From a virus, in the IMG/VR virus record IMGVR_UViG_3300043661_000106, positions 1 to 23,985 of that record: a DNA stretch of 23,985 nt; one strand, given 5' to 3'. The notes beneath the pieces were generated by a model. That model ran no database searches. It was not told where the DNA came from and saw nothing but the letters and a program-made list of their open reading frames with translations. The translations under genes were made by a program, and so were the position numbers. Every line of letters starts with the position of its first letter. The stretch's first letter is position 1. Positions 2,026 through 20,986 of this stretch are shown in pieces.

Positions 2026-3165
2026 TTAGAAGCAAAACCCCTGTACTGGAACCCCGGCACCAGGTGTCGCGAAGTTCATGGACACGTGCGCGGTGGTGAC
2101 GCCGGTTAAGGTGACCGAGTTTCCAAAAAATCCAGTGAGCACACATACCGGCGTAGTCGTGAATGCAGTTCCGAAATTCACCTGGCAGGAAGACACACTC
2201 CCCGAACCGCCGTTTACGGTAAAAGCGTTATCCGTGCCGCCGACCGCCGCACCCGTTCCGCAGAGGCTCACGGTGGGCGTGCCGGTGAGAAACAGCGCGT
2301 GGTTGTTATAGGTCTGCGGGGGAGCGGTTGCGCCAACGATTTGTGAACCGTTGTATTTGAGATAGGTGAGGCCGCCGATGGTTGAAGGCGGCGTACTAGA
2401 AAACGGGATAGCGGTCGCGCCGAAGTGCACCTGGGTGACTTGGTCCGATGTGTTGATGTCCACACCGGAAGCCACCATCTGCGCGGGCGTTCCGCCATTG
2501 TTTGACATCATCCACCGGTGGGCAGACGAGTCCGCCCAGACGCAATCGAATCCCGCCGTCACGCAGCTGCCCGCAATCGAAGAAACTTCGGGGAAGATCA
2601 GCGACCCGCCCACCCAGGTCAGCAGGTCGTTGGAGTTCTTAGAAAAGCACAGGTTGGTGGTGCCCGACTGGTTGCGCCAACAAATCGAATCTGAGGAAGC
2701 CAGGCGCAGCGCGCCGGTAGTGGCTGGCGGACTGGTGCCAGAGATAAACGTACCGGTAAAGCTTCCGCCACCGCCGCCTGAGCCGCTGGTTCCGCCGCCT
2801 GGCACCTGATCAATGGAAAACAAGACGTCCGAGGGGGCACAGACCGGACCATCGTTTTGCAAGCATAAAACTAGCTTGAAGTAGGCACCGACAGACAGCC
2901 AAATCGTGGCTCGGCCACCAGTGGAAAACGGTACGGGGTTGGGGTTTTGAACTGTCCCCGTGTAGTCGGTGTAGCTGACGGCCTGTGTCGTAGTTCCCGC
3001 CTGAAAAACATACAGAACTCCGTTGGTCAAGGGGACGCCCGTATTGCTCAGGAACTGGATGCTTCCCACCCCACCAATCGGAGCCACCGACTGCGCGACC
3101 GTCGACCCACAAAACGCCAGAACTAAGGCCAAGATGCCTAATGAGTAACGAAACTTCCGTACCAT
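2026..3165 (-). CDS. Signal-peptide-bearing tail fibre/spike-like protein
   Basis: A 379-residue protein. Residues 1-25 are a Sec signal peptide (MVRKFRYS, a hydrophobic core, then TVA|Q). About residues 33-110 match the head-binding domain of many phage spikes and fibres: GVPLTNGVLYVFQAGTTTQA, YTDYTGTVQNPNPV, GGRATIWLSVGAY. A Gly-rich hinge (GGGTSGSGGGGG) and a beta-rich shaft of short repeats follow. The last 53 residues form a two-cysteine C-terminal domain (TPVCVLTG ... QGFCF) that two other exported proteins here share. GGAG lies 6 nt before the chosen ATG; an ATG 54 nt further upstream has no such site and would hide the signal. The likely role is host adsorption. Why it carries an export signal is unexplained. 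Confidence 0.8.
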   Translation of the reverse strand: MVRKFRYSLGILALVLAFCGSTVAQSVAPIGGVGSIQFLSNTGVPLTNGVLYVFQAGTTTQAVSYTDYTGTVQNPNPVPFSTGGRATIWLSVGAYFKLVLCLQNDGPVCAPSDVLFSIDQVPGGGTSGSGGGGGSFTGTFISGTSPPATTGALRLASSDSICWRNQSGTTNLCFSKNSNDLLTWVGGSLIFPEVSSIAGSCVTAGFDCVWADSSAHRWMMSNNGGTPAQMVASGVDINTSDQVTQVHFGATAIPFSSTPPSTIGGLTYLKYNGSQIVGATAPPQTYNNHALFLTGTPTVSLCGTGAAVGGTDNAFTVNGGSGSVSSCQVNFGTAFTTTPVCVLTGFFGNSVTLTGVTTAHVSMNFATPGAGVPVQGFCF

Positions 3166-3231
3166 TGAACGCTCCGCTGTAAGAGCCCAAAGTAGACACA
3201 TGAACAAAAAGTTAGTCACAGGGGTACTCCA

Positions 3232-6414: not shown

Positions 6415-7227
6415 TCATTGCTGGCCGTAGACCGTCGGCGCCAGCGACGCCATCGGCGAATAACCCGCAGCAGAATCCATGCTGCCCGTGTTCGGCGTTG
6501 CGCTGCCGAAGCTCAAGCCGCTGCCGCCCATGTTCGACAGCATCGCCATGTTGCTCATGCCGCCGAGTGCGCCGGTAACTGCGTTGGAAACGCCCATGGT
6601 GCCCTGCGCTTTCGCCGCGCCTTCTTGGCCGTAAAGCGAAGCGATGTCGCCGCCCATGCCGGTCGTGATATTGCCGGCAGCGTTCGCCGCGCTGAGCCCT
6701 TGCGCCGATTGCCCGGCCAGCATGTTGTACTGGTTCTGCTGGTTGTTCAGGAACTTCTGGTAGGCGTCTTGGTATTGCGTCTGCGCGTTGCTGAACGTGT
6801 TTTGATAGTTCGTCGAAGCCACGCCCTGCGCGTAGTTGTTCATGCCCGCGAGCGTGCCGCCGGAAAGAAGTCCGCCCTGCGCGGCCGCGGAATTCTGCAT
6901 CGCATTTTCGCCTTGCTGCAGCTGGAACTGGTAGCCAGGCGTCGCGGCCGCCTGCGCTGCGGTGGGCGCTTTGAAATTTCCGCTGAAATTGGCCAAGAGT
7001 CCTTGGCCCGGCGTTGAGAGCATCTGCGAAAGAGTTCCGGACGCCGCCGTGCCCGCCGCCTGGTAAGGCTGAACGCCCGCCAGCGCCTGGGTTTCCGAAG
7101 TTCCCAGCTGCTGCTGGGCCTGCTGCATTCCCTGCTGTTCTTCCTGGGAAGCTTTGGACGAAGAGCTCGCGCCGAAGATGCCGCCGAGAAGGGAAGCGCC
7201 TGCTCCGATTGCGCCGGTGATGCTCAT
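6415..7227 (-). CDS. P22 gp7-like DNA transfer/ejection protein
   Basis: A 270-residue protein. The N-terminus is a Gly/Ala/Ser-rich hydrophobic stretch (ITGAIGAGASLLGGIFGA) followed by a Gln-rich segment. The central part has TPGYQFQLQQGENAMQNSAA, then GGLLSGGTLAGMNNYAQGVA, a signature common in phage DNA-transfer proteins of the gp7 type. Many short Gln/Asn/Ala repeats and Gly-rich membrane-active segments follow. In P22, gp7 is packaged in the head and ejected with the DNA. Its ATG overlaps the GNAT stop (ATGA). The assignment rests on recognised composition and the central motif. Confidence 0.7.
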   Translation of the reverse strand: MSITGAIGAGASLLGGIFGASSSSKASQEEQQGMQQAQQQLGTSETQALAGVQPYQAAGTAASGTLSQMLSTPGQGLLANFSGNFKAPTAAQAAATPGYQFQLQQGENAMQNSAAAQGGLLSGGTLAGMNNYAQGVASTNYQNTFSNAQTQYQDAYQKFLNNQQNQYNMLAGQSAQGLSAANAAGNITTGMGGDIASLYGQEGAAKAQGTMGVSNAVTGALGGMSNMAMLSNMGGSGLSFGSATPNTGSMDSAAGYSPMASLAPTVYGQQ

Positions 7228-7730
7228 AGGAATTTACACAGCGTATTGTCCGTGTGCACCCAGTCCAGCGCTTTCAAGAATGGTGTTTGATCGTGCGCGA
7301 TTTTGCAGCTGGTAATCATCATCGTCACTCCGCGAGCGCGCATGTCGCGCTCCCAACGTAGAAAAAGCTTGAGCCCCATTCCGTGACGGTCGTCGGGATG
7401 CATCCAGTACATGTCGGTGACCGCCTGTTCGCCGGAAGATTTATAGTGGAAGTGGGGCATGACGAAAGACATCAGGTAGCCCACGAGCTTTGCGTCCTGC
7501 CGCGCAGTCACCAGGTAAAACATCTTCAGTTTCTCGAGCTGCGCGTAACGCTCTTTGTCGAGATCGATCTTCAGCTTTTCCCGATTGACGCAGAGCTCTA
7601 GCCAGTGCTGGTACATCAGCGGTTCAGCGTCGGACCAGAAGTCAGCGAGCGCTTCGCGCTGTAAGGTAATCAGCGCAGTCGCCGATAGTTTCGAGGTCGT
7701 CGATCGCAATGTTTGGGATGTCGAGCTCAT
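7224..7730 (-). CDS. GNAT-family acyltransferase
   Basis: Up to 168 residues. The GNAT core is clear: KMFYLVTARQDAKLVGYLM (central strands), TDMYWMHPDDRHGMGLKLFL carrying the R-x-G-x-G acyl-CoA pyrophosphate-binding loop, then the helix LRWERDMRARGV and the late strands MMITSCK and FLKALDWVHTDNTLCKFL. A YQHWLEL motif with the following charged helix matches GNATs seen in other phage late operons. The start is uncertain. The ATG at 7730 overlaps the acyl carrier gene by 89 nt, whereas homology would start the domain near residue 20, where only a CTG is available. The acceptor is unknown. Sitting beside an acyl carrier protein, it could use an acyl-carrier rather than an acyl-CoA donor (inference). 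Confidence 0.8.
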   Translation of the reverse strand: MSSTSQTLRSTTSKLSATALITLQREALADFWSDAEPLMYQHWLELCVNREKLKIDLDKERYAQLEKLKMFYLVTARQDAKLVGYLMSFVMPHFHYKSSGEQAVTDMYWMHPDDRHGMGLKLFLRWERDMRARGVTMMITSCKIAHDQTPFLKALDWVHTDNTLCKFL

Positions 7731-7854
7731 GCAAAAATTCCAGAAGTTCCAGACTGTCGAGACCCAGGGTTTCGAGACGCGTGGTGCGCGTGGCGCGCAC
7801 GCCGAGGTCGTTCCACAGCTTTTCGAGAACGGTGTCTACAGTCAGCTGCTCCAT
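7642..7854 (-). CDS. Acyl carrier protein (phosphopantetheine-binding)
   Basis: A 70-residue protein with acyl carrier architecture: helix I at about 2-17 (EQLTVDTVLEKLWNDLG), a loop, then the attachment motif LETLGLDSLELLEFLHELD with Ser34 in the D-S-L triad that receives 4'-phosphopantetheine, and a third helix near the end (TIGDCADYLTAR). Length is slightly below the usual 75-80 residues because the acidic loop after helix II is short. The ATG overlaps the stop of the tail-region gene upstream (TGATG), and the 3' part overlaps the GNAT frame. No ketosynthase or phosphopantetheinyl transferase is in the window, so host enzymes would have to charge it. Its partner is not known; the adjacent GNAT is the obvious candidate. 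Confidence 0.85.
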   Translation of the reverse strand: MEQLTVDTVLEKLWNDLGVRATRTTRLETLGLDSLELLEFLHELDIPNIAIDDLETIGDCADYLTARSAR

Positions 7855-8390
7855 CAGAATTCCGACACCATCAGCTGCGACCCGTTGATCAAGTTCAGCG
7901 TGTCGCCGTTCGGACCGTTGACAACGAAATAATAAATATAGGGCGTGGTCGAGCTCAGGCCTGAGTCAATCACCGACATCGTGGCGGGCGTGACCACGCC
8001 GGCAGCGATCGTCCCGCCACCAAAAGCATCGCTGCCCACGATGACGTCGCCGGCGTTCGGCGCCGCGCCTTTGGCCGGAATAGCGCCCGTCGTGCGATAC
8101 ACGAACACGTAGTAAATGCCCGCCGTGTTCGGCTTGAGCGAAACGCGCGCTTGCACCTGATGCTCGCCGTAGACTGACGGCGTGATCGGTCCGGTGCCAA
8201 CTCCGGTGGATTGCTGGCCGCCATTGCAAACCACCGCCGTGGCGTTGGTGGAAATAGTGACGCGGTTGTTCACCGGCCTCGCGATGACGTCGGAAAGAGT
8301 CTGCAGGAAGCGCTTCCGCGTGAAGCCTGCGCCGGCTGGGTCCTTCAGGTCCCATTCCGTTCCGATGGTTGGAAGCAGCTGCTGCGGCAT
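7854..8390 (-). CDS. Beta-rich tail/virion protein, unknown family
   Basis: A 178-residue protein. A helical start (residues 20-40, TRKRFLQTLSDVIARPVNNR) is followed by beta-rich sequence with many Thr, Val and Gly residues (QVQARVSLKPNTAGIYYVFV, TTPYIYYFVVNG, LINGSQLMVSEF). It lies immediately after the gp10-like gene (TGATG overlap), where P22 encodes the tail needle gp26. It lacks the long heptad-repeat coiled coil expected of gp26, so it is not an obvious needle. A tail plug, adaptor or small fibre subunit is possible. It is also translationally linked to the acyl carrier protein downstream. Confidence 0.6.
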   Translation of the reverse strand: MPQQLLPTIGTEWDLKDPAGAGFTRKRFLQTLSDVIARPVNNRVTISTNATAVVCNGGQQSTGVGTGPITPSVYGEHQVQARVSLKPNTAGIYYVFVYRTTGAIPAKGAAPNAGDVIVGSDAFGGGTIAAGVVTPATMSVIDSGLSSTTPYIYYFVVNGPNGDTLNLINGSQLMVSEF

Positions 8391-9940
8391 CAGCTGACCG
8401 CCAGGTATTTACGCGCCAAGCGGTCTTGGCCGCTCTCCGTGGGATTGATGTAAGCATCCGCGATGCGCCAGGGAATCGGGTCGGACACCACAACCTTGGG
8501 CGTGAAGCTTGCCCAGCTGCCCAACCGCCGATCGATCGCAGCGACCTTAGAGTTTCCCGCCTTGCCGCACGCGATCATGCGGTCCGGCGTCCAAGTCTTC
8601 CCGAAGTCCTCGGAATAGGAGAACACCGCGTAAGGGTCGCGCGGGTTTCCGAAGCCGTCGGTCAGCGGCGGCTGCGGTCCCAAACCGGTTTCGAAATCGA
8701 CCTGAAATTCGTTAATCGGCATGGGATTCTGGCTGCTTTCCGCCGAAACCGTCGGACCGATACGCGTGCGCACAATGGGCGTCGAGATGCCGATGCCGGT
8801 CATTTCGCTCAAGTACTGCGTGGACATCGAATACACGTTTCCAGAGTTGCGGTCGCCAACCAAGTGGAGTCCAAAGTTGTAGGTGTGGCAGCGCGCGAGA
8901 TGCGCGCCTTGGCCCTGCACGCCTTTGATGATCGAACTCATGCGGTGCCACATGTTGAGATCGACGTCCAACCGCCAGGTCGCGTTCGCGGTCGGAAACC
9001 ACAGCCAATAAAAATTATGGCCGTTTTCCTGCGTGGCGAAGCCCACCGCGTCGGTGATGTTGACCTTCTGCGACTGCATCCAGTATTCGAATCCGTGATC
9101 GGAAACGCGCGTCGCGGTTTGTCCAGCGGCGGCGAAGACCATGCCCGCGCCGCGTTCATCGCCACCCAGCCAACAGATGGTGGTGCCGTTGGCGGTCGCC
9201 ACACGCGCGACGGAGTACTGCGCGAGGATGCCCACTTCCATGAAGCCGCCGTTCAGCACCGCGAACGGAAAGATCGGAAGCCCGGCGTTGTAGTAAGCCA
9301 CCGCGCGCTTGGCGCCGAAGACCCATAGCAGCCGGTTGGTCGCGATAATCGCAAGCAGCTGGTCGGAGAACACCGACACCTGCGAAACGGAAAGTCCGGT
9401 CCAGGTCGTCGCGTCTTCGGGATTCGAGATCTGGAAAATATTGTTTGATTGCAGCGCGACGAAGAAGCCGTCCAGGTAGTCGATCATCAGAATGTTTGCT
9501 GGCGCTGCGGTGATGGCGGCGAAAGCGTTGGTGGCCAGCAGGAACACCGTCAGCGTTCCGCCCGAAGCGATCGCGAGCTGGCCGGGATAGATGCCGCCGG
9601 CGGTTCCGCCGCCGATCATGGTCACCGGCAAGCCGTCGTTCAGGATGTTGTTATTCGCCGTCGCGGGATTTCCGCCGTAGTCGGTCAGCACGCCGTTGGC
9701 GGTGAGTTCGTACAGGTGCGTGCCGCCGACCACGAAGGTGCGGCCGCTAACGGTGCAGAAGCCGCGTGGAATGCCGCCGGCCAGCGTGGCAAAGAGCGAC
9801 AGTCCAGGCGTCGGCAGCAGAGCCCAGGCGGTGCGCGCGCTGGACGATTCCATCTGCTCGGGATACCAGTTAATGCTAAGTTCAGCATCCGCGAGCGGGG
9901 TCTGCGGCTGGTAAGTTCTGCCACAAAATCCGAATCTCAT
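8390..9940 (-). CDS. P22 gp10-like packaged DNA stabilisation protein (tail hub)
   Basis: A 516-residue protein (P22 gp10 is 472). The N-terminus shows the family pattern: NWYPEQMESSSARTAWALLP, then TPGLSLFATLAGGIPRGFCT, and GRTFVVGGTHLYEL. Repeated beta-blade-like segments follow (ILMIDYLDGFFVALQSNNIF, NRLLWVFGAKRAVAYYNAG). The later CWLGGDERGAGMVFAAAG and FYWLWFPTANATW segments also fit the Phage_stabilise family. In P22, gp10 binds the gp4 ring, closes the portal channel and carries the tail needle and spikes. It follows the gp4-like gene by 1 nt and overlaps the next gene by 1 nt. Confidence 0.85.
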   Translation of the reverse strand: MRFGFCGRTYQPQTPLADAELSINWYPEQMESSSARTAWALLPTPGLSLFATLAGGIPRGFCTVSGRTFVVGGTHLYELTANGVLTDYGGNPATANNNILNDGLPVTMIGGGTAGGIYPGQLAIASGGTLTVFLLATNAFAAITAAPANILMIDYLDGFFVALQSNNIFQISNPEDATTWTGLSVSQVSVFSDQLLAIIATNRLLWVFGAKRAVAYYNAGLPIFPFAVLNGGFMEVGILAQYSVARVATANGTTICWLGGDERGAGMVFAAAGQTATRVSDHGFEYWMQSQKVNITDAVGFATQENGHNFYWLWFPTANATWRLDVDLNMWHRMSSIIKGVQGQGAHLARCHTYNFGLHLVGDRNSGNVYSMSTQYLSEMTGIGISTPIVRTRIGPTVSAESSQNPMPINEFQVDFETGLGPQPPLTDGFGNPRDPYAVFSYSEDFGKTWTPDRMIACGKAGNSKVAAIDRRLGSWASFTPKVVVSDPIPWRIADAYINPTESGQDRLARKYLAVS

Positions 9941-9941
9941 T

Positions 9942-10751
9942 TTAGAAGTTGTGACTCCGTGTCGGCGTGCCGGTGTAGATGTTGCCGCGTGAACCGTGCG
10001 TGTTCACGATGGCTTCGTCGCACCAGGCTTCCTTGATCGGCGAATTGATCGAGGCCACGTCGTCCAGCGCGTTCTTCGCTATTTTCATCACCAGCTGCAG
10101 CTTCTGCGGGTCGCCGGGAAACTCGGCAGCCAGGTCCACGGCCAGGTTGTAGCGAATCGCTCGAGCGTAAGCCGGCGGAAAAGAGAACTGCGTCTGCAGG
10201 TTCGGAAATTGCGACAGCAGCGCCCAGGGATAGAGCACCACGGGATTCGCCTGTGTCGGCACCGGCCAGAAGTAGAGGTCGAAGTCCACCGCGTTGGCGT
10301 TCGCTTCGATGTAAACACCGCGTGGAATCAGCGAAGGCGTGGTCTTGTTCGCGACGCCCTGCCAGGCAACCGAGTCGTACATTTCCATGGGCACTTCAAC
10401 CGGTGTCTGCTGACTTGCGGAATACATAACCGATACGCGTTCGATGCGCGCCGGCCGATTCATCAGGAAATTCTCGGTCCCGAGCACATTTCCCAGCGTG
10501 TAGTGGCCTAGTCCGGCCACCAGTGTGAGCGTGTTTCCGTTCTGGTCCTGCGTGGTGTAGGGAATTGCGAAGACCATCAGGCGCTTGGCCGACCAGGCGT
10601 CCAGTAAATCGTTGGCCACCTGTAGCGCGTCATTCTGTTCGTCCGCGGTAAGGTTTTGTCCGGCACGCAGGGAACCGACCAGACGCAGCGCGCTCTTGAT
10701 GAAGGAAAGCGCGCTGCGCTGGACGCCTGGTGCGGGTGCTAGGTTCGGCAT
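9942..10751 (-). CDS. P22 gp4-like head completion / tail accessory protein
   Basis: A 269-residue protein. The first 60 residues carry the gp4 pattern of helices (SFIKSALRLVGSL, LTADEQNDALQVANDLLDAW, SAKRLMVFAI). A beta-rich insertion follows (YTLG, RIERVSVMY, FDLYFWPVPT), and then the C-terminal helices FPPAYARAIRYNLAVDLAAE and KLQLVMKIAKNALDDV. P22 gp4 (166 residues) forms a ring under the portal after packaging. This longer form, with a large middle domain, is common outside the enterobacterial group. It is followed by the gp10-like gene, the same order as in P22, and starts directly after the previous stop (TAAATG). Confidence 0.8.
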   Translation of the reverse strand: MPNLAPAPGVQRSALSFIKSALRLVGSLRAGQNLTADEQNDALQVANDLLDAWSAKRLMVFAIPYTTQDQNGNTLTLVAGLGHYTLGNVLGTENFLMNRPARIERVSVMYSASQQTPVEVPMEMYDSVAWQGVANKTTPSLIPRGVYIEANANAVDFDLYFWPVPTQANPVVLYPWALLSQFPNLQTQFSFPPAYARAIRYNLAVDLAAEFPGDPQKLQLVMKIAKNALDDVASINSPIKEAWCDEAIVNTHGSRGNIYTGTPTRSHNF

Positions 10752-11270
10752 TTAAGACGCCTTCTTCGACTTCCTCTTTGCCGTTTGCGGCTGGTTCTCG
10801 CGCAGCCAGAGTTCTTCTTCGTCCCGGTCGTGGACGATGGAAGCCTGAATGCGCTTTTTGTGCTCTTCCCGTGCGGCGCGGAAGTCATCGAGCGAATCGA
10901 AGGCGGCCGGTAGCGGTGCGGGCGTTTTGTCCATCGTCTTCGGATACATCCGATCGGTGATGGACACTACGCGATCGTTGGCGTGCTCTTCCAGCCAGCG
11001 TTCCTCTTCTGCCGCGTTGTTCACGATGCTGGCTTTTTGGAGCTCGTCCCATTCGCGGGTAGCGTTCTCCAAAAGCAAGTCGATTTGTTCCTTGCCTTTG
11101 AAGTCCACCCGCTTCGGCGCTGGCGTCTTGTCCATCACCTTCGGATATTCCTGATGGATGTAGGGTTTTTCTTTGTACACGCCGTGCCGGCCGCCGCCTT
11201 CCACGTACTCATGCGATTTGCGGCGAATCGCTTCCTGCTTCGCGGGGTCTTCTTGGTTGAAGTTCGCCAA
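10752..11270 (-). CDS. Duplicated YPK-motif protein, unknown function
   Basis: A 172-residue, highly charged protein. It is an internal tandem duplication. Residues 41-99 start EYPKVMDKTPAP and end ASIV-x4-EEERWLEE. Residues 108-160 start MYPKTMDKTPAP and end ASIV-x4-EEELWLRE, with a helical, Glu/Lys/Arg-rich linker in each copy. A Lys/Arg-rich tail (AKRKSKKAS) follows. No ATG exists before the first repeat. A TTG at 11270, just after the upstream stop and preceded by GGAAGG, is the best start. The YPK module recurs in the neighbouring protein at 11272-12255. Its place between coat/decoration genes and gp4 suggests a capsid-associated or assembly role (inference). Confidence 0.7.
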   Translation of the reverse strand: MANFNQEDPAKQEAIRRKSHEYVEGGGRHGVYKEKPYIHQEYPKVMDKTPAPKRVDFKGKEQIDLLLENATREWDELQKASIVNNAAEEERWLEEHANDRVVSITDRMYPKTMDKTPAPLPAAFDSLDDFRAAREEHKKRIQASIVHDRDEEELWLRENQPQTAKRKSKKAS

Positions 11271-11271
11271 G

Positions 11272-12255
11272 TTACACCGCCTTCCCGGTTTGATCGATCC
11301 GGAATGGCGCATCGGCCGGCCGTGCGGTTGACCGCGGCCGTGCAGATTCGCGGCTGGACGCGAGAACGCGCCTATCCGCTACGCCTTTGCGCTTGTCGTT
11401 CTTCACGGCCACAACCTTCGCGCGACGCGAACCGACGAAGACCCGCCTTTCCTTGCCGTCGCCCGCCTTACGGTCAGCAACACGCGATGGATTGCGGTCC
11501 GCTGGCCGTCCCGCTTGCCCCGCTCCCTTGCTGCTGGTGAGCTGGGCTTCGTGGTCTGCGTCGTTGGCGATGGCCGTCACGTCGTTGCCGTCGTCATCCT
11601 GGCCCACAACCACGTGCTTGGGATATTCCTGCGGCACGTAGTCTTCTGAACCAGCGCCCGGCACGTCGAGCGGACGATAACCTTCGGCCAGCGAATGCGA
11701 GTGCGACCGGCGGACGATTTGCTCGTGCGCGTCGAAAGGCACGGGCCTGAGCGTGTGTTTTCCGTCGAGCGGGACGGCTGGACTCATGCCGCTGTCCTTC
11801 CTTCCCAGCTTGACTTCGAACATCGCGTCGCTGAGGTCCGCATCGTCGAGCTGCTGAATCTGGTCCTTGACGGAGATGACGGATTCGAAAGCATCCACCG
11901 CATCGTTTCCCTTTTCTCCGGTCCTTCGCGACCATGCAATGCTCAGCACGCTATCGCCGACCATGACGCCTGAAAGCGGCACTGGTCCTCGTCCCGCACG
12001 CCCACGAACGGAACCGCTGTGGACGTGGTAGTTCGCGAGCGCAGCCACCGGCCGCTGCACAGGCTGAACGAAGTCCCTGTCATCGTCGAAGTTATCGGCG
12101 TCAACGAAATTGCCATAACCATCGACGCGGCGGTTGTCTACTGCGGTCGAAACCGGGTAGCCGTCCCGCTGGCTGTCGAAGTCGTCGGGATTCTGCGCTT
12201 CCGGCCGCGCCATCGGCTGCGCGGGTTTCACGTACGGTTTGTCTTGTGTCTTCAT
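11272..12255 (-). CDS. Charged YPK-motif protein in head region, unknown function
   Basis: A 327-residue protein, Asp/Arg/Pro-rich and probably poorly ordered outside a central segment at about 95-150 (PLSGVMVGDSVLSIAWSRRT, then an acidic helix). Residues 208-213 read PQEYPK, followed by a GQDDDGND turn and a short helix with DADHEAQL. This is the YPK-motif layout seen twice in the next gene. The C-terminal 90 residues are strongly basic (KAGDGKERRVF, GSRRAKVV, NDKRKGVADRR), suggesting nucleic-acid or capsid-lumen contact. An AAAAGGAG site lies 8 nt before the ATG. The largest gap of the operon, containing a hairpin, is directly upstream. No family was recognised. Confidence 0.75.
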   Translation of the reverse strand: MKTQDKPYVKPAQPMARPEAQNPDDFDSQRDGYPVSTAVDNRRVDGYGNFVDADNFDDDRDFVQPVQRPVAALANYHVHSGSVRGRAGRGPVPLSGVMVGDSVLSIAWSRRTGEKGNDAVDAFESVISVKDQIQQLDDADLSDAMFEVKLGRKDSGMSPAVPLDGKHTLRPVPFDAHEQIVRRSHSHSLAEGYRPLDVPGAGSEDYVPQEYPKHVVVGQDDDGNDVTAIANDADHEAQLTSSKGAGQAGRPADRNPSRVADRKAGDGKERRVFVGSRRAKVVAVKNDKRKGVADRRVLASSRESARPRSTARPADAPFRIDQTGKAV

Positions 12256-12353: not shown

Positions 12354-13205
12354 TTACGACACCGACGACGGTACGAACTTCTGAAGGCTCGCTGACCAAA
12401 TGAACGTAAACGATTTGAGCGGCGTGCCCGTACCAATCACTGAGATATTCCCCGTAGCGGTCCACGTCCAGGTCGAACCAGCTGCAGCAATGATTGTGAA
12501 CGAGCACGCACCCACTGCCGTGGCGTTACAGCCCACCGGAATGGTGAATCCGGTAATGGCTCCTGCACCGCTCACGATAAAGAGCGGTCCGCTGGGAAGA
12601 ATTACTCCAGCCGCCGCGGCTACCGTTGCGGTTTGACCACTCCAATCGCTTGCGTATGGGTTATTAAATCCGGCAACCCATCCGCCGGTGACCGAAGAAC
12701 AGAGCCACTGCGCGCCGGTCAGTACGTTGACCCATGGAGAAGTCGTGGTGTTGGCGGCCGTGCAGGTGGAGCCCATCGGCGGGTCTTGCGAAAACAGACC
12801 GTTCGGAACGGGGTTTCCGCCCTGCGCGATGGTCACGTTGTAATTCGGAGCCACCAGCACCATCGCACCGGAAAGATGCGGTGCCGCCTGCGTTCCGAGA
12901 TACCCGCGGTTGACCGAGATCAGTCCGGTGGTGGCGTTGACGTTGAAGACGCCCATCGCTTCGCGGTCGATGTAGATGATCGTCGAAGGCGTACCCGGGA
13001 GAATCGGCGCGACGATACCCGTGCTGGAAGCCAGCGTGATTTGGGTTTGAAGCGTCGGCGTGGTTCCCGAATAAAACGATGGCCCGGTGACCGCCGCCGT
13101 GAGCGTGGTTTGGGTCATCGTCTGCTGTTGCGCCGAAACGCCGAAGGCGCAGCTCAGCACGAGCGCGGAAAGCAAAAGCAGTTTGGTAAATCGGTTGGTT
13201 TTCAT
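12354..13205 (-). CDS. Signal-peptide-bearing protein in capsid decoration position
   Basis: A 283-residue protein. The first 25 residues are a Sec signal peptide (MKTNRFTK, hydrophobic LLLLSALVLSCAF, then VSA|Q). The mature part is Thr/Ala/Gly-rich and beta-like. About residues 77-113 follow a pattern often seen in phage head-fibre or decoration domains: YIDREAMGV, then ISVNRGYLGTQAAPHLSGA. A later segment holds WVNVLTGAQWLC and a C-terminal beta domain. It comes directly after the coat gene, where decoration proteins usually lie. TAAAGGA lies about 10 nt before the ATG, so the signal-peptide start is supported. A stand-alone exported protein is the alternative. The LSC in the hydrophobic core is not a good lipobox. 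Confidence 0.75.
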   Translation of the reverse strand: MKTNRFTKLLLLSALVLSCAFGVSAQQQTMTQTTLTAAVTGPSFYSGTTPTLQTQITLASSTGIVAPILPGTPSTIIYIDREAMGVFNVNATTGLISVNRGYLGTQAAPHLSGAMVLVAPNYNVTIAQGGNPVPNGLFSQDPPMGSTCTAANTTTSPWVNVLTGAQWLCSSVTGGWVAGFNNPYASDWSGQTATVAAAAGVILPSGPLFIVSGAGAITGFTIPVGCNATAVGACSFTIIAAAGSTWTWTATGNISVIGTGTPLKSFTFIWSASLQKFVPSSVS

Positions 13206-13219
13206 GTTCGTTTTTTCCT

Positions 13220-14488
13220 TTAGGCCGTAATCCGGCAAGCGCCCTGCGGATACATCGTCAGCCATCCGCCGAGAACGTCCAGCCGCATCAGCAAGCGGTC
13301 GGTGTTGATGTCGGGCTGCGCCCACATACGAATCGCGAGACCCAGTTCCTTGTCGGCGGCCATTTCCATGATGTGCTGGTTCTCGTACATCTCGAGATCA
13401 GCGCATCCGAAAGTGAACGCTTCGGGATGGAAGGCCAAGCCGCGCGTGGACTGCACGCCGGTAGCGCCCTGCACCGTGATGGCTGCGAGGTTGCCGGGCG
13501 AAGCGTCCACGGTCTGATACGGTCCGGCGAGAGTGATGCCGTCGCCGTCCACGCATCCGACGGGAATCGAGGCCAAGCCACCGCCGCCTGACACCACGTT
13601 CGCGAGTACGTTGAACGGTCGCAGATCGCCGGTTGACTGGCGAGTCAGCGGATTGATGCGGTGAACGCCGGCGAAGAAAATGATGTCGCCTTGGTTCAGC
13701 ACCTGGGTTGAAGCGGTCCAGCCGCTGGTTGCGATCAAGCTGCCGGTTTGCCCGGCGCCAGCCACGACGGGAGTGCCGCCCTGGAGTCCGACGGTAAAGA
13801 CCGGCGCGTTTTGGGTCATGAACCAATCGAAGCCCAGCCCGCGAGCTACGAGGCCCTTGAAATAATCTTCTTCGCCGCCTTCACCCTTGGCCAGATTGCG
13901 CAGGAAACCGAGTGATGCGGTGCCGCCGGCATTGGTGATCAAGCCCTGCAACGCGGGGAAGATGGCGCGCTGCATGCGCGGCGAAATGTGCACCGACAGC
14001 CCTTCTTCATCGTCGATAGGGAAGCCTTCGTCGGCGAGAATTTGAAGAGCGTTCAGATACACGTCGGCCGTGTTGGGCACCGTGCCAGGCGTTCCGACTT
14101 CGGCGGGCACGTTCAAAAACTGCTGCATGCCGGCGTAGTCGATGTCGTTCGCGAGTTGCACGATCTTGGGCTTAGTGACGCGGTTGGTGAAGTCGTCGAG
14201 TGAAAGCGCCATATCCGAAGAGGTGAACGCGCAGGCTTGTTGCCACTGCGTGTTGAGAGTCAACGGGACGGAACGCTCGATGTAGTCCTGCAGTTGGATG
14301 CCCTGCCCGACGGTGGACACGCTGCGCGCCGGCTTCCGGATGTTCAGAATGTATCCGATTTTTGCGCCCGCGCGTCCGAACTTGTCGTCGTAACGACGGA
14401 TGACTTTTTTCGTGAAGGAGATCGAATTTTCAAGGACCAGCAGGTTCTTGAAGCTGATCTCCTGGTTGGTCAGAATCATATTTGACAT
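13220..14488 (-). CDS. Major capsid (coat) protein, P22 gp5-like
   Basis: A 422-residue protein (P22 coat is 430). Features of the P22 coat family include an N-terminal helix, the early strand region IGYILNIRKPARS (44-56), and TSSDMALSLDDFTNRVTKPK, which is like the equivalent Asp-rich segment of P22. The middle has GDIIFFAGVHRINPLTRQST (267-286), matching the GDxxxFAGV stretch of gp5, and the end is LDVLGGWLTMYPQGACRITA, like the family's C-terminal strand. AGGAG lies 6 nt before the first ATG. It follows the scaffold gene by 12 nt, in P22 order. It forms the icosahedral shell. No processing site is expected in this family. Confidence 0.9.
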   Translation of the reverse strand: MSNMILTNQEISFKNLLVLENSISFTKKVIRRYDDKFGRAGAKIGYILNIRKPARSVSTVGQGIQLQDYIERSVPLTLNTQWQQACAFTSSDMALSLDDFTNRVTKPKIVQLANDIDYAGMQQFLNVPAEVGTPGTVPNTADVYLNALQILADEGFPIDDEEGLSVHISPRMQRAIFPALQGLITNAGGTASLGFLRNLAKGEGGEEDYFKGLVARGLGFDWFMTQNAPVFTVGLQGGTPVVAGAGQTGSLIATSGWTASTQVLNQGDIIFFAGVHRINPLTRQSTGDLRPFNVLANVVSGGGGLASIPVGCVDGDGITLAGPYQTVDASPGNLAAITVQGATGVQSTRGLAFHPEAFTFGCADLEMYENQHIMEMAADKELGLAIRMWAQPDINTDRLLMRLDVLGGWLTMYPQGACRITA

Positions 14489-14500
14489 CAGGAGCTCCTG

Positions 14501-15499
14501 TTACCGGCCCTCACGGAGCGCGCGCTTGAAGTCCCGCATCTTGCCCGGGTAGTTTGGCTTCGCTGCAATCTCTTTGGAAGTGAGGCCAGTCGATGAAGTA
14601 GCTGCGGTGGAGACCGGTTCGGGTGGTTCCGGTGACCGCTGCCTTGTTTTTTGTTTCGTCCCGCCATCAGCAGCGCCCTTTTCCCGGGACGCGCCAGTCT
14701 TCAGCCTCTCGGAGAGGCGACCGACTTCCATGATGGCGGACAGTTCGGACTTCTCAGCCAGCTTCTTCGCGTATTCAGGATGCTTGCCGAGGTAGTACAC
14801 CACTTCGGCGCCGTTATCCTGTTCCATGATTGCTAGCTGTACTCCCGTGTGCATTGGAAGATCTTGATCGACGACTTCGTCCCAGTCGTCATGTGTTTCG
14901 CTGAACTCTTCGACTTGGGTGCGATAGTTCGATAGATTGTTTTCGAGCGTTTGCCGCCGGGTTTTCTCGGCATCTTTGGCGGCTTTATCCGCCAGCGCTT
15001 TATCGACGCCCCAGGCCAGCAGCGCGTCTTCGTATTCCTGGTCGTCCTTGAATTTCGAGCGTTCCGGTCGTGAATTCTTGGTTTCCTCCTTCTTGGCCGG
15101 CGCCTTCTCGCCTTTTTCGAGCGCTTCCAAGCGTTTCTGGAGATCTTCATTCTGCTGTTTCAGTTCGCGGGTGGCGCGTTCGATCTTGCGCTGCACGCGG
15201 CTTGGCCGCTTCGCCGCTGGCCGTTCCTCTTCCTCGCCTTCTTCGTCCTCGTCGGCGGCTTTGGTTTTTGCTTTCCCTTTTTCTACCGGTTCGTCCTTGG
15301 CATCCTGCCAATCGACGTGTGCGGCTTCGAATTCCTCTTCGGTGTCGAAGTCATCGCGCTTGGGCTCTTCGGTGACTTCAGTTTTCGCCGCGGCGCTTTC
15401 TTCCTTCTCTACTTCCAAGCCGTTCTTAGCCAAAGTGTCTTCGATCAGCTCTTGCGTTGCGCCGTGACTGGAAGAGCTGAGAATGATTCCCTTTGCCAT
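14501..15499 (-). CDS. Scaffolding protein, P22 gp8-like
   Basis: A 332-residue, strongly acidic and helical protein (P22 gp8 is 303). Residues 30-100 are Glu/Asp-rich, with an acidic run (DEDEEGEEEE). About 100-200 is a coiled coil (RKIERATRELKQQNEDLQKR, LEALEKG). The C-terminus is basic (KMRDFKRALREGR), matching the coat-binding C-terminal helix-loop-helix known for P22 scaffold. The position immediately before the coat gene supports the call. AAAAGGAG lies about 8 nt before the ATG. It would direct procapsid assembly and leave before or during packaging. Sequence conservation in this family is low, so composition and synteny carry the assignment. Confidence 0.85.
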   Translation of the reverse strand: MAKGIILSSSSHGATQELIEDTLAKNGLEVEKEESAAAKTEVTEEPKRDDFDTEEEFEAAHVDWQDAKDEPVEKGKAKTKAADEDEEGEEEERPAAKRPSRVQRKIERATRELKQQNEDLQKRLEALEKGEKAPAKKEETKNSRPERSKFKDDQEYEDALLAWGVDKALADKAAKDAEKTRRQTLENNLSNYRTQVEEFSETHDDWDEVVDQDLPMHTGVQLAIMEQDNGAEVVYYLGKHPEYAKKLAEKSELSAIMEVGRLSERLKTGASREKGAADGGTKQKTRQRSPEPPEPVSTAATSSTGLTSKEIAAKPNYPGKMRDFKRALREGR

Positions 15500-15515: not shown

Positions 15516-17567
15516 TTACGGTCCGTAGCAGACGACTTGCACGAATTCGGTGTCGTTCACCGTCGGCGTCAAGCTGTAGGTGAACACCACCGACGTGGTT
15601 GTCGGCGTTCCTGCCGTGAATGTGCCCGCTGGGTTGGTTCCGCCGGCCTGCGTGGCGGTGCACCAGAAAGGTGCGGCGAAGTAAGGCGTCGGAAAGGTGT
15701 AAGTGATGGTCGGCGCAGCGCCGACAGCCGCCGAACCGTTGGTGATGGTGAAACTGATTGGCGAATTCTCACCGAGCGGCACCGATACTGCCGCGCTCGT
15801 GCCCCAATTCGCGCTGAGCACCAGTTTCGCGGCCGTCAGCGGCGTGCCGGTAATGGAGGCGTTGCCCACCAGCGTGCAGCTGGAAGCTGGACAGATGCTT
15901 CCGTTGATGATGGTGTTGGCGCCGCCGTCGATGTGTATGCCGGTAAGTCCCGCGCCGCCGAGCGCAATGCCCGCGCCAGCCGGCTGCTGAATGGTTGTGC
16001 CTTGGAAGTAGTTGTGCGAGCCAGCGCGTGCGTACAGCAGACCGGCGCTGGTCGCCACCACCACCGCGTTATAAATCTGCGAGCCGTAAAAGTTAGCGGT
16101 GCCGGAATTGTCCACGCCGACCAAGTATTCGGGATTGATGATGTCGGCGTAGGAATTGAACGTCGAACCGGCGCCGACCACCACGGCGGCGTTAGTGGTG
16201 CTCGCGCCACTCCAGAAGCTTCCGTAAGAATCCACGGTCGAACTTCCCGCGATGATCAAGCCGCCCGCTGCGCTCGCGCAATATCCCACTCCGGTGAAGA
16301 CGACGGTGGTGTTCAAGCTGCTGCCGCTAACCTGACAAGCCAGGCCACCGAAGGAAAAGATCATGTTCGCCACCACGGTCGAGGGTCCTTGCAGACTCAT
16401 GCCGATGACCGAAGCGCCGTCGTTATTTCCGCAGCCCCAGCCGGTGACGTTGTAAAGCATGATTCGCTGGAAGGGCAGAAGGTTGAAGGTGTTTCCGTTG
16501 CCCCAAGTGTTGTAGCCCAGGCAGGTGAAAGTGATGTCGCGCATCACGTCCACGTTGGGCAGCTGGTAGGGAACTACCGACACGCTGTGCTTCCAGAACG
16601 CTCCGACGGTCGCCGAAAGGCCGGTGAAGGTGAAGTTCGGAACGGCGATGATGTACGTGTTGTTTGTGCCCAGCAGCGTATCGCCGTAAGAGTTCGTGGT
16701 GTCGGGGTCCTGAAACACTTTCGAACTGACCAGCATGGAACCGCTGGGAAGCTGCAGTGGCGCACGGTAGCCGACCGCTAAAGCCCATGCGGCCGTCAGG
16801 TTCGCGGTATCGTCGTCGCCCCAAGCTAAAACTTCGGTGCCGCTGCGGCTAGCATTCGCAGCGTTTGAACAGGTGATCGACGTGGCGCTATTGATTGCGG
16901 TGATGGTGCCCTGTGCCACGTCCAGCGTTCCGTTCTGGTTGTTGGGCCCGATGCCAAAACAGATTTGCCCTACCTTGGCGATCGCGCGCCCGTAGTTATC
17001 CGTTCCGGTGAAGTTTCCGTCCGGCGCGGTGATGGTGTTCTGCGTGTTGATGGTGGTGGCGTCGTTGACGAAGTGCGCATCGGCGAAGACCGTGCTGCAG
17101 CTGGCCGAGCCGCCGCAGTTGGGACTCGCGAATATCTTGTAAGTGTTTCCAGCCGTGGCCGTGGACGAACCAGCCGTCACGCCAAACCAGGTGCTTGTGG
17201 CGGTGTCGAATTCGAACTGGCAGATGGTGACGGCAAGCGCTGTAGCCGTCGGCACGCAACCGTTGATAACGTTGATGGTCTGACCGTTCGCGGAGTACGG
17301 CGCATAGGTGACCGTGAAGCCGCCGGTCCCGTTCTGCGCGAAGATTACGCTGACGCTGGCTTGCGCCGGTGTGGGCACGCCAGTGAACTGGAAGGCGGTC
17401 ACGTTCTGCGACAGCGTGACTTTGAAGTTCTTCCAGCCGTTGGAATCGATCGGCGCCTGCACCACGCCAGCCGGACTCGTCGGAAGAACCAGCTGCGCGC
17501 GCGCCGTGCTTGAGCGTCCAAGGAAAACAATTAGCAACAGAAGCGCAATCAAATATTGCTTTCGCAT
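15516..17567 (-). CDS. Signal-peptide-bearing tailspike-like beta-helix protein
   Basis: A 683-residue protein. Residues 1-24 are a Sec signal peptide (MRKQYLIALLLLIVFLG, then ARA|Q). About residues 40-130 are a small beta domain found on phage fibres (FKVTLSQNVTAFQFTGVPTP, VNVING-like strands, FEFDTATSTWFGV). DDDTANLTAAWALAVGYRAP followed by LQLPSGSMLVSS resembles the start of pectate-lyase-type beta-helices. Repetitive beta sequence continues to about 610. The last 63 residues are a two-cysteine domain (APFWCTAT ... VVCYGP) shared with two fibre-like proteins in the window. It lies between portal and scaffold, an unusual site for a spike, and its ATG overlaps the portal stop (TAATG). Polysaccharide binding or cleavage is plausible; no catalytic residues were identified. 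Confidence 0.8.
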   Translation of the reverse strand: MRKQYLIALLLLIVFLGRSSTARAQLVLPTSPAGVVQAPIDSNGWKNFKVTLSQNVTAFQFTGVPTPAQASVSVIFAQNGTGGFTVTYAPYSANGQTINVINGCVPTATALAVTICQFEFDTATSTWFGVTAGSSTATAGNTYKIFASPNCGGSASCSTVFADAHFVNDATTINTQNTITAPDGNFTGTDNYGRAIAKVGQICFGIGPNNQNGTLDVAQGTITAINSATSITCSNAANASRSGTEVLAWGDDDTANLTAAWALAVGYRAPLQLPSGSMLVSSKVFQDPDTTNSYGDTLLGTNNTYIIAVPNFTFTGLSATVGAFWKHSVSVVPYQLPNVDVMRDITFTCLGYNTWGNGNTFNLLPFQRIMLYNVTGWGCGNNDGASVIGMSLQGPSTVVANMIFSFGGLACQVSGSSLNTTVVFTGVGYCASAAGGLIIAGSSTVDSYGSFWSGASTTNAAVVVGAGSTFNSYADIINPEYLVGVDNSGTANFYGSQIYNAVVVATSAGLLYARAGSHNYFQGTTIQQPAGAGIALGGAGLTGIHIDGGANTIINGSICPASSCTLVGNASITGTPLTAAKLVLSANWGTSAAVSVPLGENSPISFTITNGSAAVGAAPTITYTFPTPYFAAPFWCTATQAGGTNPAGTFTAGTPTTTSVVFTYSLTPTVNDTEFVQVVCYGP

Positions 17568-20024: not shown

Positions 20025-20276
20025 TTAGCTTTTGAGCCATCTATTTTCTGGCGTTGCCGAAACTCCGCGCGCCATGTCCGACAACTTGCCCATCCCGGGA
20101 TATTTCGCAGCCACCTTCGCGCGTACCGTGGCTTTCTCTTTCGACGTGCCGTTGCCGCTGACCCGGGCGAGCGCATTGCGCGCGTGCGATCTGTCGTGAA
20201 TCGGGTATCGTCGGCCGGGAAGAGCAAACCCCTTGGTGGGTATTTTCCTACGAGCTGCTGCCGTCAGTTGCGCCAT
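20025..20276 (-). CDS. Small basic phage protein with ALPGRRYPI/HARNALARV motif
   Basis: An 83-residue basic protein with the block KGFALPGRRYPIHDRSHARN followed by ALARVSGNGTSKEKATVRAK. I recognise this block as recurrent in small phage and bacterial proteins of unknown function. GGAGG lies 5 nt before the ATG at 20276. This site decides the start over an ATG 15 nt upstream and places the start inside the end of the GroES-like gene (29-nt overlap). The function is unknown. The high Lys/Arg content suggests binding to nucleic acid or acidic proteins. Confidence 0.75.
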   Translation of the reverse strand: MAQLTAAARRKIPTKGFALPGRRYPIHDRSHARNALARVSGNGTSKEKATVRAKVAAKYPGMGKLSDMARGVSATPENRWLKS

Positions 20277-20736
20277 TCGGTCCTCCGACAATCACGCGAA
20301 TATCTGCTTCCTGACAAAGGCAAATGTACGTGCCGTCCTTCGCTACCCAGCCAGCATCCACGCTTTGATAATCGTGGTGCGGTCCGATGATCACTTCCAT
20401 GCCCGGCGCGACTTCCGTTTCGAGGAAGTCGCCATCGAACCAGCGGCCCGGTCCCACCTTCAAGATCACGCCGCGGCGCGAATGAATCTGTTCAACGGCT
20501 GCGGTTTCCGGCCGGATGATGCGCTCGTACTTCAGCTTCTCGGTAAAGATGCGTACGAGTATGCGGTCGCGCAGCGGAATGAGATCAAGCGGGTCGAAGC
20601 CTGGCCGGCCTGGCGTTTCGTGCCAGCCGCCGTCGCCGTAGTGCGGACTTACCCAGGTGTCGGACGCTTGATGACGGCGCTTGATGTCTTGGACTGTGAG
20701 CGTAGACGTACTATCGCCGGTTTGCAGCGGAACCAT
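20248..20736 (-). CDS. GroES-like co-chaperonin with N-terminal extension
   Basis: A 162-residue protein. Residues 52-157 match the GroES fold. LIPLRDRILVR is the first strand, and a mobile-loop-length segment with hydrophobic IIR sits where bacterial GroES has its IVL-type tripeptide. SRRGVILKVGPGRW is the family's strongest motif. VAPGMEVIIGP follows, then a roof-like insert, and GTYICLCQEADIRVIV closes the domain. The first 51 residues are an extension of unknown role (His/Gly/Trp/Pro-rich). No GroEL is in the window, so it would act with host GroEL to fold phage proteins such as coat, as T4 gp31 does. The ATG at 20736 starts just after the upstream gene but lacks a good ribosome binding site, so the start is less certain. 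Confidence 0.8.
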   Translation of the reverse strand: MVPLQTGDSTSTLTVQDIKRRHQASDTWVSPHYGDGGWHETPGRPGFDPLDLIPLRDRILVRIFTEKLKYERIIRPETAAVEQIHSRRGVILKVGPGRWFDGDFLETEVAPGMEVIIGPHHDYQSVDAGWVAKDGTYICLCQEADIRVIVGGPNGATDGSSS

Positions 20737-20752
20737 CGGTTTTCGCGACGAA

Positions 20753-20986
20753 CTAGTTGACAATATCGTCGGGAGGTTTCTTTGCTTGTGGTCCAGGTAA
20801 TTCGGATGCGGGCACATCTTTCCAAGCGCCGTCTTCGATCACTACGTCGCCGGAACTCATGCCGATTACTGCGATGATGACGTTGTTCTTGACGAACACG
20901 ACAGCGATGCCGGACCAGAAGATTAGGTCGGCTTCGATGTTGGTGACTACGTTTTCGCCGGCTTTGCGCAGCCAGTACTTTTTCAT
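20753..20986 (-). CDS. Small protein, unknown function
   Basis: A 77-residue protein beginning MKKYWLRKAGENVVTNIEAD. A hydrophobic middle (WSGIAVVFVKNNVIIAVIG) reads more like alternating beta strands than a membrane helix. The Pro/Lys-rich end is PQAKKPPDDIVN. The ATG overlaps the stop of the upstream small gene (ATGA), which chooses this start over ATGs farther upstream in the frame. No family was recognised. Confidence 0.65.
   Translation of the reverse strand: MKKYWLRKAGENVVTNIEADLIFWSGIAVVFVKNNVIIAVIGMSSGDVVIEDGAWKDVPASELPGPQAKKPPDDIVN

Follow-up and report, generated by a model that had tools for sequence, protein, structure and literature searches.

The head genes of cyanophage Pam1 have been listed as portal, scaffolding, capsid, cement and then adaptor (PMC9382816), and an Ig-like fold has been described for the cement proteins of Pam1, GP4, epsilon15 and BPP-1 (PMC9698820). 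An extra domain within P22-type coats reportedly reinforces them (PMC9698820), so that a separate cement protein is less expected in phages that carry such coats. In P22, orf69 (NP_059631.1) lies between gene 5 and gene 4; literature searches on this protein, and on the YPK motif that is the subject of this work, found nothing.

Here we examine two neighbouring small late genes, A and B, of an uncultured soil phage, whose products share a module centred on YPK. The window, by which we mean the whole stretch of DNA analysed, is the 23,985-base virus record IMGVR_UViG_3300043661_000106.

The late-gene block

The late block is on the minus strand and encodes, in order, the terminase, a P22 portal, the scaffold, a P22 coat, a Gly/Ser/Thr-rich protein, A, B, a gp4-like adaptor and a gp10-like closure protein (Table 1). 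Portal, scaffold and coat are of P22 type and stand in order (P22_portal, 8e-117; scaffold phrog_8865, 3e-35; P22_CoatProtein, 2e-21), and the homologues of gp4 (phrog_12985, 5e-33) and gp10 (phrog_578, 5e-69) are directly 3' of A and B; phrog_12985 also covers the P22_Tail-4 protein of Pseudomonas phage PAE2. By this gene order the window carries a P22-like podophage head–neck cassette.

Table 1. Positions of the late-block genes and of the elements within proteins A and B
Feature	Position	Strand	Remark
Scaffolding protein	14501..15499	-	family match
P22-like coat protein	13220..14488	-	family match
Gly/Ser/Thr-rich protein, signal-peptide-like N terminus; between coat and A	12354..13325	-	
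Protein A, 327-aa ORF; residues ~156-245 orthologous to small A proteins of related phages	11272..12255	-	profile E 1e-26 in window
A DAHEQIVRR element, conserved in nearly all A proteins	11707..11733	-	
A YPK module, residues 209-239, short hairpin form without inserted helix	11539..11631	-	
Protein B, 172 aa, TTG start, two YPK modules and Lys-rich tail	10752..11270	-	
B N-terminal element QEAIRRKSHEY, counterpart of HEQIVRRSH in A	11205..11237	-	
B module copy 1, residues 40-96	10983..11153	-	
B module copy 2, residues 108-159	10794..10949	-	single ancient duplication
B C-terminal Lys-rich tail QPQTAKRKSKKAS, net charge +5	10755..10793	-	
P22 gp4-like tail accessory factor (phrog_12985), directly downstream of B	9942..10751	-	
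P22 gp10-like head closure (Hc3)	8390..9940	-	

Exported proteins are unexpected within a head operon. Starts resembling Sec signal peptides were seen by eye (e.g. MKTNRFTKLLLLSALVLSCAFGVSA) in the Gly/Ser/Thr-rich protein and in other late-block proteins on the minus strand, at 734-1237, 2026-3219, 1469-2146 and 15516-17567. The position of the Gly/Ser/Thr-rich protein between coat and A is conserved across related contigs, and its counterpart in L064 (7052-7882) also begins like a signal peptide. The phage further encodes, on the same strand, a Cpn10/GroES-domain protein (20248-20817; Pfam E 3e-5) and a 70-aa product that looks, by eye, like an acyl carrier protein (GLDSLELLEFLHEL, 7642-7854), the latter adjoining a GNAT-like protein at 7224-7730.

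The internal repeat of protein B

Protein B begins with a TTG at 11270, one base past the stop of A, and this start gives the 172 residues and the two module copies that had been described from the sequence alone, with YPK beginning at residues 42 and 109. Copy 1 reads YPKVMDKTPAP...ASIVNNAAEEERWL and copy 2 YPKTMDKTPAP...ASIVHDRDEEELWL, the common pattern being YPK-x-MDKTPAP ... SIV-x4-EEE-x-WL. This repeat is beyond chance: local alignment of one half of the protein with the other scores 92, against a maximum of 63 in 5000 shuffles.

Relatives of B on other IMG/VR contigs are 40-62% identical to it, and in three orthologues (46-62% identity) neither copy has been lost; two copies are found in five B proteins, that of the window included, and a single copy in the remainder. 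Between phages, copy 1 is 64% identical to copy 1 and copy 2 60% to copy 2, whereas the two copies within one protein share 42%, and the copy-2 clade has a support of 0.985, which together show one old duplication without later homogenisation. Comparison of B with its orthologues gave dN of about 0.25-0.5, dS of at least 1.6 and often saturated, and dN/dS of about 0.2 (misframed rows for protein A of contig L002 were left out of the dN/dS analysis); B is under purifying selection.

The relationship between A and B

A looser copy of the module had been noticed in the upstream protein A, where PQEYPK is indeed present, with YPK at residues 211-213. Aligned directly, window A and B show no significant similarity (135 of 2000 shuffles are equally good), and the N-terminal element alone reaches just 20% probability, as would fit a reading in which the YPK similarity is convergence or low-complexity chance and the genuine repeat is confined to B. 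The family profiles, built from relatives gathered separately for A and for B, speak against such a coincidence, since hhalign matches them with 96% probability and a score of 49.1 where 300 column-shuffled versions reach at most 19.9, and the A profile picks out B both in the window (E 2e-4) and in L064; we therefore regard chance or convergence as highly improbable. As judged from these profiles, A and B are paralogous and their modules homologous.

The match covers two elements, HEQ-I-VRR-x-H in A with QE-x-IRR-x-H in B, and the YPK module, which has an extra helix between its two strands in B and is a short hairpin in A. The two elements are separable, since four A proteins (L018, L032, L038 and L040) have no YPK module. 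The last ~80 residues of A (245-327) have an odd codon-position composition, with a second-position GC of 0.60 against 0.36-0.45, which leaves the reading frame of this stretch open to doubt; the A protein of L027 has a comparable long Arg-rich tail.

The A proteins of two soil phages (L017, 3359-3790; L051, 112-501) end in a Rho_N/SAP-like domain, with weak matches (phrog_3281, 3e-4; Pfam Rho_N, 0.057), and PAE2_6 also appears to do so. The A proteins at L006 4996-5568 and L027 1180-2112 have an extra N-terminal SH3-looking domain (GQ-V-YRYDD...APAIVVR...VNLKVL) with a weak match to phrog_19300.

The REYPEA of the edge ORF at 3-227 had also been counted with the module, and this assignment is not borne out, its pairwise similarity being near chance (108 of 2000 shuffles) and its profile E-value 2.1 among the window ORFs; the ORF is on the strand opposite to the late genes.

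Distribution of the gap genes

The proposal that the module is common to neighbouring small proteins and recurs in other phages is supported, with many profile matches and a conserved slot between the coat and the gp4 adaptor gene. Among uncultured P22-like contigs long enough to show gene order, about 30 distinct ones have scaffold, coat, Gly/Ser/Thr-rich exported-looking protein, A, B, gp4 and gp10 in that sequence. A Bryobacterales (Acidobacteriota) MAG includes a 39-kb contig, assigned to it by binning, that carries one copy of the block in the same gene order. A search for B among 396 Acidobacteriota genomes returned only this MAG, so carriers of the A/B block are probably not common prophages of Acidobacteriota. 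Through this one binned contig, Acidobacteriota may be hosts.

A tblastn search with P0001 gave no match among cultured phages; cultured members were reached with a consensus probe and then by walking from gp4 and coat homologues. The probe led to two phages in which coat and gp4 flank a small gene, Pseudomonas phage PAE2 and Chlorobiaceae phage CV-1-33. A probe match in Microcystis phage Mel-JY33 was dismissed as chance, being on the wrong strand and inside another gene. Walking from gp4 homologues disclosed a gene with the module in the coat–gp4 gap of phiAX1, P26218 and ctfPj964, and a form of the module with GW-x-D-x-P in the gap gene of VvAW1, BA3, X14, Vibrio 1.211 and DSL-LC05; PBR31 orf024 is a further gap-gene member, and P22 orf69 a candidate one. 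In reference phages without the exported-looking protein the module gene still lies between coat and gp4.

A profile made from soil phages only was scanned on the 2589 ORFs of the first-found reference loci, a scan that is not circular for phages reached via gp4. It matched the gap genes of ctfPj964 (4.5e-6), CV-1-33 (2.6e-5), P26218 (6e-5) and phiAX1 (0.011), and otherwise only the MAG contig's own A and B. With leave-one-out profiles the gap gene came top in 16 of the 17 loci, the exception being window A; this test is partly circular because the modules had been picked by eye among gap genes. The reference phages L069, L071, L076-L078, L082 and L083, with P22-like coat and/or gp4-like genes, have no recognisable module gene in the gap, and the family is thus common but not universal among P22-like phages.

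PAE2_6, CV133_gene48, PhiAX1_420, P26218_35, PBR31 orf024 and VvAW1 gene 9 resemble the window genes in slot and in module (YPK/FPK-hhY...hhV...EE). The reference phages differ in having one gene with one copy; in the soil phages there is a pair of paralogues, and B can hold as many as two copies. Several reference members add GW-x-D-x-P and an HeH/SAP-like C terminus; the GW-x-D-x-P ending, present in several but not all of them and so not strictly defining, is absent from window A and B, and B has EEExWL. P22 orf69 shares the position of the family, its module ends in DGWLDHP and it has a basic tail, RKGRKPK; it differs in having no YPK. Its leave-one-out profile ranked it first of 191 ORFs (E 0.007; next ORF 0.55), which is weak evidence from sequence for its membership.

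Predicted structure of the module

The AlphaFold2 models have a pLDDT of 84.7 and pTM of 0.50 for B, and a pLDDT of 76.3 and pTM of 0.40 for A. In the model of B each copy has a short strand at IV with a helix on either side; copy 1 also shows a short strand at PK, and at the matching place, ahead of its helix, copy 2 has a strand of two residues. The model of A has strands at 58-64 and 70-75 and a helix at 78-94. The module is accordingly predicted to be beta-beta-alpha, with a YPK strand, a return strand containing xIV and a helix starting at EEE. This strand–strand–helix module with the YPK and EEE hallmarks, by which the coat–gp4 gap family is recognised, is present in the window proteins. 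The sequence-only reading stood to be overturned if profiles found no other phage proteins and the copies folded differently; the profiles match many, and the predicted order of elements is the same.

Foldseek against PDB and BFVD and VIA-align yielded no credible structural match, and neither did a sequence-profile search of the PDB, whose best hit, AroA (E 0.04), we reject as a fold relative. The absence of structural matches does not establish a new fold. No Pfam or NCBIfam family matches the module proteins, and PHROGs gave only weak matches without a function (phrog_37709, E 0.0015; phrog_28255, E 9e-4).

C-terminal tails

The B proteins with two modules have basic tails. The tails of reference members are more basic than those of neighbouring proteins (p 2e-4), and a [KR]GR-x-P core is carried by 4 of the 14 reference members, compared with 1 of the 114 neighbours (p 4e-4), both tests having been framed after the sequences were seen and one of the 14 members, ctTUS972, being doubtful. 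A SAP match was obtained only in Vibrio 1.211, at E 0.014. These sequence features suggest that in some relatives the tail, AT-hook-like or SAP-like, may contact DNA; window A and B contain neither a [KR]GR-x-P core nor a SAP/HeH C-terminal domain, the tail of B being merely Lys-rich.

Possible roles of A and B

A fixed slot in the late block and a small module that has been multiplied suggest an accessory, structural role in which the protein would dock on another virion component, and they would fit the dock on capsid or portal proposed from the sequence alone. We give about even weight to the reading that A and B are small late-operon proteins in or on the virion head or neck, with the putative beta-beta-alpha module docking on a virion partner. 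Homology, duplication, purifying selection on B, the predicted order of elements and the fixed slot between coat and gp4 all support this reading; the low pTM of both models, the gap without a module in several reference phages and the reported self-reinforcement of P22-type coats count against it. The literature, the papers on X14 and VvAW1 included, yielded no virion proteomics or interaction data. In the mechanism we propose, the paralogous A and B would most probably become part of the head or neck or attach to it, the module would bind a repeated partner, either the coat lattice or the portal/gp4/gp10 connector, the two copies in B would give avidity or bridge two sites, and a tail that touches DNA, whether basic, AT-hook-like or SAP-like, would be limited to some relatives.

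The two proteins might instead act as assembly factors outside the virion, helping coat or gp4 to fold or join in the manner of a chaperone or scaffold and then leaving the particle. They are small, charged and partly disordered, are encoded alongside scaffold, coat and gp4, and one B orthologue has a very weak match to a scaffold family (phrog_8865, E 0.026), but this match falls short of significance and a scaffold gene is already present in these phages; we consider this role unlikely. A little less likely still is an outer decoration (cement) protein on the coat lattice. Like A and B, which come after the coat block, the Pam1 cement protein is listed between capsid and adaptor (PMC9382816). 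It is set apart, by description only, as Ig-like, as are those of GP4, epsilon15 and BPP-1, against the beta-beta-alpha prediction here, and the self-reinforcement of P22-type coats also argues against it (PMC9698820).

Returning to docking in the head or neck, a bolder extension, which we think unlikely as a whole, is that the coat–gp4 gap, P22 orf69 included, holds one ancient undescribed family whose members anchor the packaged genome to the inside of the head or to the neck. Its members would combine a beta-beta-alpha docking domain with a variable DNA-binding tail (AT-hook-like, SAP-like or Lys-rich), and in soil phages it would have grown to two genes and three docking modules.

Significance

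Boundaries and spread can now be given for a small gene without annotation that recurs in the head operons of a major phage morphotype. Tractable members are named, possibly including P22 orf69, so that the role becomes testable in a laboratory phage. A and B also form a marker gene pair for uncultured P22-like phages, possibly ones that infect Acidobacteriota.
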